From contig NZ_CP117425.1 of NCBI RefSeq assembly GCF_030687295.1, forward strand, positions 3,166,001-3,230,000: a DNA stretch of 64,000 nucleotides, written 5' to 3'. The stretch's first letter is position 1; each line of letters opens with the position of its first letter. A model generated the notes under the pieces. That model did not search any database and was not told the DNA's origin. It saw only the letters and a list, made by a program, of their open reading frames with translations. This document shows, piece by piece, positions 7,854-52,279 of the stretch. The stretch comes from Pseudomonas beijingensis (GTDB taxonomy: Bacteria > Pseudomonadota > Gammaproteobacteria > Pseudomonadales > Pseudomonadaceae). The position numbers and the translations under genes were made by a program.

Positions 7854-7988
7854 GGGGCTGGACCTCAATCGCGTTGGTTGGCCGATTATAGCCCATCCCG
7901 TTGGCATGGGCCTATGTCGCGACTTGGGCCACTGGTATCAGGCGTTGAATTGACCAATGGCGCTTGCGTTACGGTTCATCTCAAAATA

Positions 7989-8004
7989 CTGTGTTTATAT
8001 CCAG
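7989..8004 (+). promoter_or_regulatory. LexA-like box before radical SAM gene
   Basis: CTGTGTTTATATCCAG differs from CTGT-N8-ACAG at one base of the right half-site. It lies 16 bp before the start at 8021. Given the DNA-repair annotation of both following genes, SOS control is plausible. Confidence 0.6.
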
Positions 8005-8020
8005 TATTCGAGATCACTTC

Positions 8021-9238
8021 ATGCAGCTTATCGCTAAGCTCGGCATTCTTGCCGACGCTGCCAAGTATGACGCCTCCTGCGCCAGCAGCGGTGCGCCCAA
8101 GCGTAGCTCCCGAGGCCGTGAGGGACTGGGGGCCACCGATGGCATGGGCATTTGCCATAGCTATACGCCGGATGGGCGCTGCGTCTCGTTGCTGAAGGTG
8201 TTGCTGACCAACTTTTGCCTGTACGACTGCCAGTATTGCGTCAACCGTCGTTCCAGCAACGTGCCGAGGGCGCGTTTTACGCCGGAGGAGGTGGTCCGGC
8301 TGACCTTGGATTTCTATCGACGCAATTGCATCAGTGGGCTGTTTTTGAGTTCCGGCATCATTCGTTCGGCCGATTACACCATGGAGCAGTTGATACGGGT
8401 AGCGCGGTTGTTGCGGGAGGAGCACCAGTTTCGTGGCTATATCCACCTCAAGACCATTCCCGATGCCGATCCGCTGTTGATCGAGGAAGCGGGGCGGTTG
8501 GCGGATCGCTTGAGCGTGAATATCGAGCTGTCCTCCGACATAAGCCTCAAGCGCCTGGCACCGGAAAAGCAGTTGACGACCATCCGCCAGGCCATGGGCA
8601 CCATCCACCAGGGGCAACAGGCGGTGGCGGATGAGCCGCGGGCACCGCGTTTCGCCCCGGCCGGGCAGAGCACGCAGGTGATTGTAGGGGCGGATGCCAC
8701 TGATGATCACGCCATCCTGAGCAACGCCGAGTCGCTCTACCAGGGGTACGGTTTGCGAAGGGTTTACTATTCAGCGTTCAGCCCGATTCCCGACAGCCCT
8801 GCCAGCGTGCCCCTGGCGGCGCCTCCGTTGCTGCGCGAGCACCGGCTTTATCAGGCCGACTTTCTCATGCGCGGTTACGGCTACAAGGCAGGCGAGCTTC
8901 TGAGCGAAACCCACAACCTGGATTTGGACATCGACCCCAAGCTGGCGTGGGCGCTGGCCAATCGAGAGGTGTTCCCGCTGGACGTCAACCGCGCCGAACC
9001 CGCATTGCTGGCGCGTATTCCGGGGATTGGCCTGCGTAGCGTGCAGCGTCTGGTTGCACTGCGCCGGGAACGGCGGGTGCGTTATGACGACCTGGTGCAG
9101 TTGCGGTGCGTGCTGGAGAAGGCGCGACCGTTCATTGTCACCAGCGATTACCGGCCTGCCGACGCCCAGGTGCGTAGCGGCCTGCTGCGGGCGCGGTTGC
9201 GTGACCCTCAGCGGCCGGTGCAGATGGGGCTTTGGTGA
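8021..9238 (+). CDS. Putative DNA modification/repair radical SAM protein
   Basis: A 405-residue protein. The radical SAM cluster motif is C66-LYD-C70-QY-C73. It begins MQLIAKLGILADAAKYDASCASSG, the typical start of this family (TIGR03916 type), and near the C-terminus ARIPGIGLRSVQRLV is a helix-hairpin-helix, a non-specific DNA-binding unit. The radical SAM core resembles spore photoproduct lyase-like enzymes; the actual lesion or modification is unknown. The in-frame start at 7964 would place the LexA-like box inside the gene, so ATG 8021 is preferred. The stop overlaps the next start (TGATG), and the two families are normally found side by side. Confidence 0.9.
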   Translation: MQLIAKLGILADAAKYDASCASSGAPKRSSRGREGLGATDGMGICHSYTPDGRCVSLLKVLLTNFCLYDCQYCVNRRSSNVPRARFTPEEVVRLTLDFYRRNCISGLFLSSGIIRSADYTMEQLIRVARLLREEHQFRGYIHLKTIPDADPLLIEEAGRLADRLSVNIELSSDISLKRLAPEKQLTTIRQAMGTIHQGQQAVADEPRAPRFAPAGQSTQVIVGADATDDHAILSNAESLYQGYGLRRVYYSAFSPIPDSPASVPLAAPPLLREHRLYQADFLMRGYGYKAGELLSETHNLDLDIDPKLAWALANREVFPLDVNRAEPALLARIPGIGLRSVQRLVALRRERRVRYDDLVQLRCVLEKARPFIVTSDYRPADAQVRSGLLRARLRDPQRPVQMGLW

Positions 9239-10086
9239 TGATTGCCCTGGATTGTGATGATGATTTCTCCACGTGGCGCGATCAGGCTCGAACGTTGCTC
9301 GGCCACGGCATCGACCCGAGCGATGTCACCTGGGCCCAAGGTCCGATGGCCGATCTTTTGGCCATGCCGGGCGCCGTTGCCTCAAGGGCCGGGCCCGTTC
9401 CGTACGCGGGTCCCCGCGGCCTTGCTGACCCAGCTCGAACAGGCTGGCCGTTACCAAGGCGAACAGCGTTGGAATTTGTTGTATGAAGTGCTTTGGCGCG
9501 TTGCCCATGGTGACCGCACAGCCATGCTCGCGGGCGACCGTCTGGGCAGTGAACTGCAGCGGCGGATCAAGCAGGTCCAGCGCGAGGCTCATCACCTGCA
9601 TGCTTTCGTGCGCTTTATCCCCCTGCCGCAGGCATTGGCCGAGCAACTGCAATTGGACCTGGTCGCCTTTCACCAGCCGGCCCATGACATCCTCGAAAGC
9701 GCCAGCGGCCATTTTGCCGAGCGGCTAGGACAGCAACGCTGGCTGATCGCAACGCCGCGCGATGGCATCCGCTTCGATGGACAGTTGCTGGAGATTACCA
9801 GCGACGTTGCCCCGAGCAATGGCAGCACTGGGCGCGTCACGCCGACGATCCCGGCGCTGAGCTTTGGCGGACCTATTACAGGCACATCTTCAACCCGGCG
9901 CGGCTCAATCCCCAGGCGCTACGTCAGCACATGCCGGGGCGATTCTGGCAGCACTTGCCGGAGGGGGAGTTGATTCCTCGACTGGTGGGGTTGGCGCGGC
10001 GGGGGAAGCAGCGGGATGGGCAGGCGTTGGAGGTGGGGGCGCAAATGGGTAAGCGGATAGTGGTTGGTGCTGTTGTTGAGGATTAA
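9238..10086 (+). pseudogene. TIGR03915-type putative DNA repair protein, two compensating frameshifts
   Basis: The N-terminus (MIALDCDDDFSTWRDQARTLL) is in frame with the start at 9238, the middle (ALLTQLEQAGRYQGEQRWNL to GIRFDGQLLEI) lies one frame over, and the C-terminus (ELWRTYYRHIFNPARLNPQA to the stop at 10086) returns to the first frame. The shifts fall near 9355-9375 (one base gained) and at about 9811-9815 (one base lost, restoring APEQWQHWARHADDPGAE). Total length is a multiple of three, equal to 282 residues, normal for the family that accompanies the radical SAM protein. Its biochemical role is not established. Because the ends are back in frame, two sequencing errors are at least as likely as decay. 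Confidence 0.8.
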
Positions 10087-10213
10087 ACAAGTTCTGAATC
10101 CATCGCCGGACATTCCCATCGGAAGTTTCCCTCAAGCTGTGTCGTTCCCCGCTGACTATCCACCCCATCACCCCGTGCGCTAAGTTTTCTACGTCGCTGC
10201 AAATTCAGCGAGA

Positions 10214-10374
10214 GGGTGTGGAAGCCCTAACGAAAACCTAGCGCGTTGCACCGCTAAATTAAAAAGCAGACGCTTTTCCTAGGTCTGCTGTTAAATTACG
10301 GCGGCTGTACGCGGGGCGCCTTCGGGTGCGCCGGGTCCTAGGTTCTCGGTCTTCCACACCCGCGTACAGCTGCC
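10214..10374 (+). ncRNA. Structured leader with mutually exclusive stems, upstream of two small ORFs
   Basis: Four pairings are visible: AGCAGAC/GTCTGCT (10265-10271 with 10283-10289); a 16-nt arm 10300-10315 with 10359-10374, 15 of 16 matched; inside it a GGCGCC-TTCG-GGTGCGCC tetraloop hairpin (10315-10332); and GGGTGTGGAAG (10214-10224), a perfect 11-nt match to CTTCCACACCC (10351-10361). The last two long pairings share 10359-10361 and so compete. CCTAGG occurs three times (10278, 10337, 10416). The ORF at 10431 begins 57 nt after the last stem. This looks like a cis-acting RNA or a repeated mobile RNA element; no ligand or regulator is known to me. Confidence 0.55.
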
Positions 10375-10430
10375 ACCCACCAGGTGGAAGTGGTGAAGGC
10401 AGTTCCTTTACATAACCTAGGTACAAGCCA

Positions 10431-10601
10431 ATGAAAAAGCTCACCCCCAACTCTCAGAAAACCACAGCTAATCCAAGGTGGCTTTCGTCTAGCGTCACCC
10501 AAGAATATCTCCTGCCAAATATCCGAATCTCGATCCCGGATTCGGTCCCTTTGCCAGCGGCATCCCAATCCGCCACTGACCTCCCATCCCCGCAGGAGTA
10601 A
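10431..10601 (+). CDS. Small hypothetical protein after structured leader
   Basis: A 56-codon frame, MKKLTPNSQKTTANPRWLSS, with a Pro/Ser-rich C-terminus. The MKKLTPN start resembles that of short Pseudomonas proteins often found behind such leaders (DUF3077/DUF6124-like), but the rest does not match well. Its last codons contain the CAGGAG ribosome-binding site of the next ORF, 7 bp before that start, which suggests coupled translation. Function unknown. Confidence 0.5.
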   Translation: MKKLTPNSQKTTANPRWLSSSVTQEYLLPNIRISIPDSVPLPAASQSATDLPSPQE

Positions 10602-10607
10602 CCCCTC

Positions 10608-10883
10608 ATGTCCCGCTACATGCCCATCACCGGTATCGAAAACAATTTCCACGCGCTCCTGATCGACACGGAAGCGCCGCTGGACGTGCTGCACGACACC
10701 GCCGCTTACCGCATCGCCGCTGTTACGCAGTTGCTGGAAAACCTCGCCATGCGTTCCGACATCAGTACGGACGCGGTGGTACTCCATGATTTCGCCCAAG
10801 TGCTGGCGATCCCCCTGCGCGATGGGTGTGATCTGCTGGATGTGATCGGGCGGCGATTGCAGGCGCAGGTGTTGGCGTTGTAA
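10608..10883 (+). CDS. Small hypothetical protein, DUF3077-like
   Basis: A 91-residue protein (MSRYMPITGIENNFHALLID) with mostly helical, leucine-rich sequence (DVLHDTAAYRIAAVTQLLEN, DAVVLHDFAQVLAIPLRDG). It is soluble and acidic. A good ribosome-binding site (CAGGAG) precedes it. It lies in the same small unit as the 10431 ORF and ends just before a hairpin. No catalytic motif is visible and I assign no function. Confidence 0.6.
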   Translation: MSRYMPITGIENNFHALLIDTEAPLDVLHDTAAYRIAAVTQLLENLAMRSDISTDAVVLHDFAQVLAIPLRDGCDLLDVIGRRLQAQVLAL

Positions 10884-10931: not shown

Positions 10932-11291
10932 CTGTGGGAGTGAGCTTGCTCGCAATAGCGGTGGGTCAGTTGATGGCGATGTTGGATGTGCTGTTGTCAT
11001 CGCGAGCAAGCTCGCTCCCACAGTTTTTTTCGGGGAGTTCACAGGTAGTGCGTTCGTTGCAAACCCTCTGTGGGAGCGGGCTTGCTCGCGAAAGCGGTGT
11101 GTCAGTTTGCAGGTTGCTGGTCGTGCCGACGCCTTCGCGAGCAAGCCCGCTCCCACAGGGTTTGGTGGGTACGCAAATTTTGCGTACACCCTCAGTCCAC
11201 TGTGGGAGCGAGCTTGCTCGCGATAGCGGTGGGTCAGTTGATGGCGATGATGGATGTGCTGCCGTCATCGCGAGCAAGCTCGCTCCCACAG
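10932..11291. repeat. Three consecutive REPINs
   Basis: Three pairs of inverted REP sequences (GTGGGAGCGAGCTTGCTCGC with its complement): 10932-11023, 11068-11158 and 11200-11291. Each has a central spacer of 30-40 bp. The middle one is of the GCGGGCTTGCTCGCGAAAG subtype. Between the second and third sits a short palindrome around TACGCAAATTTTGCGTA. REPINs are non-autonomous and mobilised by RAYT transposases; no RAYT gene is in this window. Confidence 0.95.
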
Positions 11292-11340
11292 TCAATTGGT
11301 GTGCACCCACCATTGGCGAACAGCGCTTGAGTGGCGTTGA

Positions 11341-51417: not shown

Positions 51418-51704
51418 GTGTATATCCGTTGTTGCGGTAACGGCTGCTTATGGTTCCGCCCTTACGGCGGGTCACTTTTGGAAGAGCCGGGAGCCGGACC
51501 AGCCAAAAGTAACCAAAAGCGCTTTGCCCCACCACTCGGCACCTCGCTAAGGCTCGGTGTGCCCGAACGAAGGCATTGCTCCGTGGGCCCGCCGCGAAGG
51601 GCCATCCATGGCCCAGCGCGGCTATCGCGGCATCCATGCCGGGATGCCCACTCCACACTGCCTGCGTTCGGCCAGCGTGGTTTAACGGGGCGTCCAGATC
51701 AAGA
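51418..51704 (+). repeat. Long repeat copy A (about 287 bp), left arm of an inverted pair
   Basis: Starts GTGTATATCCGTT and ends GGTTTAACGGGGCGTCCAGA. It is inverted relative to 51994-52279. Several internal palindromes (for example CATGCCGGGATG-like) are present. No ORF of a transposase is visible. Confidence 0.85.
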
Positions 51705-51993: not shown

Positions 51994-52279
51994 TTGATCT
52001 TGGGCGCCCCGTTAAACCACGCTGGCTGAACGAAGGTGTTGCGCAGTGGGCAACCCGGCATGGATGCCGGGTTAGCCGCGCTGGGCCATGGATGGCCCTT
52101 CGCGGCGGCCCACGGAGCAATGCCTTCGTTCAGGCATGCCGAGCCTAAGCGAGGCACCGAGTGGTGGGGCAAAAGCGTTTTGGTTACTTTTGACTGGGCC
52201 GGCTTCCGGGCTCTTCAAAAGTGAGCCGCTGTAAGAGCGGAACCATAAGCCGCCGTTACGCAAAAAAACGGATATACAC
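51994..52279 (-). repeat. Long repeat copy B (about 286 bp), right arm
   Basis: Inverse of copy A, beginning TTGATCTTGGGCGCCCCGTT and ending AACGGATATACAC. Identity is high but not complete. Copies A and B enclose about 290 bp with REPs. Confidence 0.85.

Follow-up and report, generated by a model that had tools for sequence, protein, structure and literature searches.

A leader on the forward strand of the 64,000-nt stretch of Pseudomonas beijingensis DNA analyzed here (the window) belongs to the known C4 family of antisense RNAs and has target sites on its own message. C4 regulators were originally discovered in the phages P1 and P7, and C4 is the antisense RNA of P1 immunity. We interpret the locus as a chromosomal C4 operon of the P1 type, in which the RNA acts on targets in its own message and keeps two small genes, ORF1 and ORF2, switched off; we assign this interpretation a probability of roughly 0.88. 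The identity of the RNA, its layout, the complementarity between arms and targets, and their compensatory evolution were shown by computation. The window unit is one of 29 C4 units in this genome with largely private arm-target matches.

A search with the Rfam covariance models placed C4 (RF01695) at positions 10294-10380 with a score of 72.1 bits, compared with a gathering cut-off of 45. The c4-a1b1 target element (RF03163), which consists of a 5' hairpin plus the a1 site, matched at 10180-10232 (E = 4.7e-9), below its cut-off (41.2 versus 46.7 bits). C4, c4-a1b1, and isrK were the only Rfam families with E <= 1 at the locus; a riboswitch or another cis-regulatory family was rejected because C4 alone reached its cut-off, and isrK (RF01394) was rejected at 23.4 bits against a cut-off of 50. 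The record of phage P1 (AF234172) annotates a1, b1, C4, a2, b2, icd, and ant1 in the order seen in the window and with similar spacing. Both models also matched P1 with similar geometry, the starts of the a1b1 and C4 matches being 120 nt apart in P1 and 114 nt apart in the window. The two matches and the P1 annotation identify the segment at 10351-10374, which the original prediction had described as pairing with either of two partners, as the antisense arm a' and, overlapping it, the 3' strand of the C4 stem; given the identity of C4, its partners are the a1 site and the 5' strand of that stem. The layout had been taken for that of a cis-regulatory RNA, and what stood of this proposal is that the RNA is regulatory and that two of its pairings compete; the RNA itself belongs to a described antisense family and is no unknown cis-acting switch.

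Exact sequence comparison confirmed that 10351-10361 (arm a') is a perfect 11-nt complement of 10214-10224. The meaning of this pairing is that of arm a' with target a1, and the sites a2 and b2 at the ribosome-binding site of ORF1 had gone unnamed; neither b1 nor arm b' had been named either, and these elements complete the P1 pattern. An 11-nt perfect complement of 10351-10374 arose in 5 of 20,000 dinucleotide shuffles of 10150-10290. The alternative pairing joins the 5' strand of the long C4 stem (10300-10315, beginning with GGC) to its 3' strand (10359-10374) through 15 Watson-Crick pairs and one G-U pair out of 16, and the two pairings share three bases, 10359-10361, as had been claimed. 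The predicted UUCG-capped hairpin is present within the stem as C4 hairpin 1 (10316-10329), and arm b' (10335-10345), located from the fold and from arm scoring, forms the loop of hairpin 2. The predicted folding energy of the 87-nt C4 stretch is -50.4 kcal/mol (z = -5.55), a value that none of 200 shuffles matched.

Upstream of C4, a candidate -10 box (TAAGTT, 10181-10186) was recognized by sequence inside the RF03163 match, and no good -35 box was seen for it by eye. The a1 site is followed by b1 (10235-10244), a complement of arm b' with an AACCTAG core, and by a separate hairpin (10265-10289), identified from the sequence and the folds, after which there is no U-run. Downstream, a2 (10384-10390) lies directly after C4, and b2 (10414-10421) overlaps the presumed Shine-Dalgarno region of ORF1. 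The motif CCTAGG does recur three times in the leader, starting at 10278 in the separate hairpin, at 10337 within the b' loop, and at 10416 within b2; the whole window contains five copies. ORF1 (10431-10601, 56 codons, MKKLTPN...) occupies the place of P1 icd, and its end carries, as predicted, the Shine-Dalgarno sequence (AGGAG, 10594-10598) of ORF2 (10608-10883), which encodes a 91-aa protein that we call type B, a name coined here.

Several other features were noted in the window. Soon after ORF2, REP-like inverted repeats (CTGTGGGAGC...GCTCCCACAG) were seen by eye in several copies at 10933-11292. Upstream of the leader, a coding stretch on the forward strand that is apparently split over several frames (9232-10086) follows a radical-SAM gene of the rSAM_link_UDG family (7964-9238); the segment from about 7930 to 10090 has no match in the related loci L174, L176, and L177, where the flanking matches lie close together. 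Farther away, two TwoAYGGAY RNAs (RF01731; 56.0 and 51.6 bits, cut-off 43) lie about 340 nt apart on opposite strands, at 52020-52139 (forward) and 51557-51677 (reverse).

The original prediction had proposed looking for compensatory changes in the stems, and these were found: when the structure of the window copy was applied to the 29 copies of its own genome, 18 of 28 base pairs had changed on both sides, including all five pairs of hairpin 1. This value was reached by none of 500 shuffles, and slid versions of the structure gave at most 8. The proportion of paired cells was 97% in helix 1, 100% in helix 2, and 59% in helix 3, the low value for helix 3 probably being due to its poor alignment by MAFFT.

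The arms also match the targets of their own units. Arms a' and b' were taken from the fold of each of the 29 copies, and ungapped complementarity was scored for the region directly after C4 (a2), the region before the start codon (b2), and the upstream region, with ties counted as best. With both arms summed, the own target scored best for 28 of the 29 C4s and the own C4 for all 29 targets; the exception was L023, whose own target came second. With single arms, the own target ranked first in 26 of 29 copies for a' with a2, in 20 for b' with b2, in 19 for a' with the upstream region, and in 12 for b' with the upstream region, and in each of these four tests the observed mean was reached by none of 20,000 permutations. 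Among the nine copies in which the own b2 was not first for b', the worst was L014 (rank 17). All 29 b' loops differ from one another, and the first 8 nt of a' define 15 types. Control regions inside genes scored 11.5-13.0 for b', compared with 20.0 at b2, and 8.2 and 8.9 for a', compared with 17.3 at a2. The ungapped score and its windows were chosen after the weaker result of a duplex-energy score with wide windows was known, by which the own target was first in 10 of 29 copies for b' with b2, 1 for a' with a2, 4 for b' with the upstream region, and 19 for a' with the upstream region.

As a replicate, 50 loci were taken from other genomes of the genus and one (L045) was dropped; among the remaining 49, the own target was best or tied for 43 and the own C4 for 45, ties being expected because some loci share arms. 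In the window's own genome, eight non-cognate pairs passed a loose threshold for possible cross-talk (a >= 15, b >= 17), and two of these involve the type B genes L115 and L116, which lack a C4. No C4-anchored reading was obtained for L045, L128, L135, and L150, in which C4 is missing from the expected place in the locus.

In the model for P1, RNase P cuts out a C4 RNA of about 77 nt, which pairs with a2 and b2, and the downstream genes are translationally coupled (PMC5320573, PMC8198154, PMC8201110). By analogy, a single transcript would probably start just upstream of a1 and run through a1-b1, C4, a2-b2, ORF1, and ORF2. C4 would be cut from it by RNase P, giving a folded product some 77-87 nt long whose arms a' and b' would base-pair with the a2 and b2 sites of the same message or of other copies. 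Such pairing would cover the ribosome-binding site of ORF1 and thereby shut off ORF1 together with ORF2, which would be coupled to it in translation. The a1-b1 segment could pair with the same arms and probably serves to buffer or delay C4.

The strongest competitor of this mechanism, which we nevertheless regard as unlikely, is a switch that acts in cis, in which one transcript chooses between the pairings a1:a' and b1:b' and the C4 fold so as to control translation or readthrough, and C4 has little if any role in trans. The lowest-energy fold of the 251-nt stretch 10190-10440 indeed pairs a1 with a' over 11 nt and b1 with b' over 7 nt, leaving a2 free and b2 almost free, and the lowest-energy folds of 14 of the 29 own copies pair a' with upstream sequence. 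A T-run of at least five between b1 and C4 in 5 of 29 copies points the same way, as does the IsrK leader of Gifsy-1, which uses a short terminated form and a readthrough form (PMC4825925). However, the preferred fold depends on the stretch that is folded: in a 207-nt stretch ending at the 3' end of C4, the lowest-energy fold keeps C4 intact and a1-b1 is not on the arms. The hairpin upstream of C4 in the window is not followed by a T-run, and a switch in cis leaves unexplained why b' matches b2 at the ribosome-binding site.

The same locus was compared in related genomes. Six orthologous copies contain C4, namely the window, L176 (P. brassicacearum), L174 (P. thivervalensis), L177 (P. sp. Q11), L179 (P. 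fluorescens ISL-33), and L180 (P. corrugata), and flanking matches support the same chromosomal place for them. In an alignment read by eye, the b' loop is altered in L174, L177, and L179 and b1 and b2 are altered to match, with a' constant; the compensatory change that the original prediction had suggested looking for thus extends to arm b' and its targets b1 and b2. In L174, L177, L179, L176, and the window, b' scores higher with its own b2 than with that of any copy whose b' loop differs. L180 has the b' of the window, which scores 20 with the window b2 and 17 with its own, and 17.5 with the window b1 and 16 with its own. RF03163 scored above the gathering cut-off in P1, L174, L175, L178, L179, L180, and L181; none is among the matches listed for L176 and L177.

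Part of this comparison bears on whether the window copy is a decaying relic that has lost its function, which we consider improbable, and more so than a switch in cis. Consistent with decay, ORF1 has 56 codons, whereas at L181 and L186, two loci with flanks unlike those of the window, the DUF6124 genes that immediately precede type B encode 128 and 95 aa; the RF03163 match of the window is below cut-off; and at the orthologous place in L175 (P. zanjanensis) and L178 (P. brassicacearum) the a1b1 element is present and C4 is absent at the Rfam cut-offs. Loss of C4 by recombination between the a1 and a2 repeats seemed unlikely, as the breakpoints, judged by eye, did not appear to fit. On the other hand, the window C4 is above its cut-off, the arms match their targets in all six orthologous copies with C4, ORF1 is open over 54-56 codons in five of them (the window, L174, L176, L177, and L179) and over 47 in L180, and ORF2 is 97-99% identical in seven genomes.

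The impression that similar leaders occur before other short Pseudomonas ORFs proved correct, both in this genome and in others of the genus. All 29 copies of C4 in the genome were above the RF01695 cut-off, and 28 of them are followed on the same strand, within 900 nt, by a gene of one of three small families: DUF6124 in 21 cases (in two pieces in L023), DUF3077 in one, and type B in six. A generic repeat such as REP, with hairpins of no regulatory role, would likewise be multi-copy, hairpin-rich, and dispersed, but this placement and the covariation of the arms with the ribosome-binding-site region make such an origin very improbable. The genome contains 24 matches to DUF6124 (PF19619), one to DUF3077 (PF11275), and nine to type B; two of the DUF6124 matches (one of them a fragment) and three of the type B genes lack a C4. 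The C4 at L001 (G000:C1:4784194-4784280), the best-scoring in the genome at 83.8 bits, has none of the three gene types after it. The type B genes without C4 (L115, L116, and L117) keep the 5' hairpin and an a1-like site as judged by eye, and it is possible that they are trans targets of C4s encoded at other loci. The T-runs between b1 and C4 were found in L002, L006, L022, L023, and L026; by eye, those of the first three follow a hairpin and resemble intrinsic terminators as in IsrK, and those of L023 and L026 sit in a hairpin loop.

Many of the units share a further element. A 23-nt sequence, CTACAACTACGCCAGAATCCGCC, has 14 matches with up to three mismatches in this genome (G000:C1), compared with none for the reversed pattern. 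Thirteen of these matches end 106-132 nt before a C4, corresponding to 13 of the 29 units, and the fourteenth, as read by eye, lies ahead of a similar promoter region that is broken. The window unit is without a match at this threshold. The element is a candidate operator that may bind a shared regulator.

C4 is widespread in the genus. It was found at E <= 0.001 in 54 of 59 sampled genomes (above the cut-off in 53), with up to at least 54 copies per genome. The numbers of C4 and DUF6124 matches were correlated across these 59 genomes (rho = 0.88), a value that ignores kinship and uses C4 counts that are lower bounds. Among 299 sampled genomes of Pseudomonadota, for which the copy counts are also lower bounds, C4 was found in 42 at E <= 0.001 and exceeded the cut-off in 40. 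We took the best C4 of each of 30 genomes of the genus (L030-L059) and read the downstream genes by eye: 13 were followed by DUF6124-, DUF3077-, or type B-like genes, 11 by another ORF of 52-57 aa, and four by Bro-N-like antirepressors (L036 was scanned), with L054 being ambiguous and L045 unreadable. The ORFs of 52-57 aa (L030, L031, L032, L037, L040, L043, L044, L047, L050, L056, and L057) often contain a ...RAAAHRAMALAALHANSSL-like stretch, and the two that were scanned (L032 and L043) had no Pfam match.

Some genomes that have many C4s but few matches to DUF6124 (G009 is one) contain divergent members of the family, as illustrated by L152, which matches both DUF6124 and DUF3077. Of eight C4-linked proteins that were scanned, three matched Bro-N (one below cut-off), one AntA, one Phage_pRha, and two DUF6124, and one had no match; the Bro-N, AntA, and Phage_pRha matches indicate that C4 is also associated with genes for phage antirepressors, both within Pseudomonas and in other genera. 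DUF6124 had no match in 14 control genomes outside the genus, and its link to C4 looks like a development within Pseudomonas.

ORF1 had four database relatives at E <= 1. It lacks a Pfam match, including one to DUF6124; its agreement with that family consists of an N-terminal MKKLTPNPP-type motif and its position before type B. This shared start, together with the DUF6124-before-type-B order in L181 and L186, suggests that ORF1 arose from a DUF6124 gene by shortening and may have kept its C4-controlled start and its coupling to ORF2. As to the products expected from P1, no icd homologue was found in ORF1, which had no Pfam or PHROGs match, whereas P1 Icd matches phrog_1426, and no antirepressor (ant) was found downstream of the window C4, the best E values of ORF2 (NCBIfam, 0.14; Pfam, 0.083; PHROGs, 0.046) all being non-significant.

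Other origins of these proteins were rejected. P1 Icd showed no BLASTP similarity to the one DUF6124 protein compared, which argues against homology; a role in anti-phage defence was dismissed since no PADLOC match at E <= 1 was obtained for ORF1, ORF2, or one DUF6124 protein; and a phage origin of the genes was dismissed since PHROGs gave nothing at E <= 1 for ORF1 or one DUF6124 protein, and for ORF2 only the match at 0.046. The structure predicted for type B is a helical hairpin (mean pLDDT 80.9), and that for DUF6124 comprises three helices (mean pLDDT 75.5, pTM 0.48). A fold search of the PDB with the type B model returned no match at E <= 0.001, and no function was therefore assigned to it.

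The closest known system is the immI operon of phages P1 and P7, which shares with the window unit the C4 fold, the arms a' and b', the targets a1/b1 and a2/b2 with their order and spacing, the small leader ORF after b2, and a second gene closely behind. Unlike the phage operon, the window unit is chromosomal, its genome holds 29 copies of C4, and ORF1 and ORF2 are not recognizable as Icd and Ant. A 2010 report listed both C4 and c4-a1b1 from Proteobacteria and phages (PMC2864571), and a difference of 4 nt is cited as keeping the C4s of P1 and P7 apart (PMC5320573). Many copies per chromosome also occur in Acinetobacter baumannii AB5075, whose group 1, reported in 2016, comprises 21 C4-like sRNAs in one genome, six of them truncated; RNA-seq indicates that they are apparently processed from longer transcripts at the start of the stem (PMC5320573). 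In the consulted sections of that report, a' is given as the variable arm and no linked target gene is named (PMC5320573), whereas the C4s of the present genome are linked to their target genes and no two of the 29 b' loops are alike.

Two further systems place a processed RNA in a comparable position. The IsrK/orf45/anrP locus of Gifsy-1 combines a leader RNA, a tiny ORF, and a downstream gene with a processed RNA between them; its short IsrK activates translation (PMC4825925), unlike the repression proposed for C4. The CI RNA of P4 is likewise a processed RNA between two complementary targets, seqA and seqC; however, it works through transcription termination (PMC4825925). C4 itself and its presence in many copies per chromosome, as in the 21 of A. 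baumannii, were thus already known. In the open literature, searched through titles and the beginnings of abstracts and with subscription journals mostly outside its coverage, we found no report of a link between C4 and DUF6124, DUF3077, or type B genes, and none of cognate arm-target specificity in such C4 units.

In this genome, then, C4 is a chromosomal device tied to small proteins of the DUF6124, DUF3077, and type B kind. We tentatively propose, at somewhat less than even odds, that a phage C4 module was captured in front of genes for small helical proteins and was then amplified. The private b' arms and targets would act as insulated locks, dozens of them per Pseudomonas chromosome, with each gene silenced by its own C4 alone and many genes co-activated through the shared promoter element; the units would in effect be chromosomal immunity systems. 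If this is true, these genes would form a common regulon with individual post-transcriptional locks. Asking what relieves C4 would offer a handle on the DUF6124 and DUF3077 genes, and the 29 antisense-target pairs in one cell form a natural system for studying how cross-talk between antisense RNAs is avoided.
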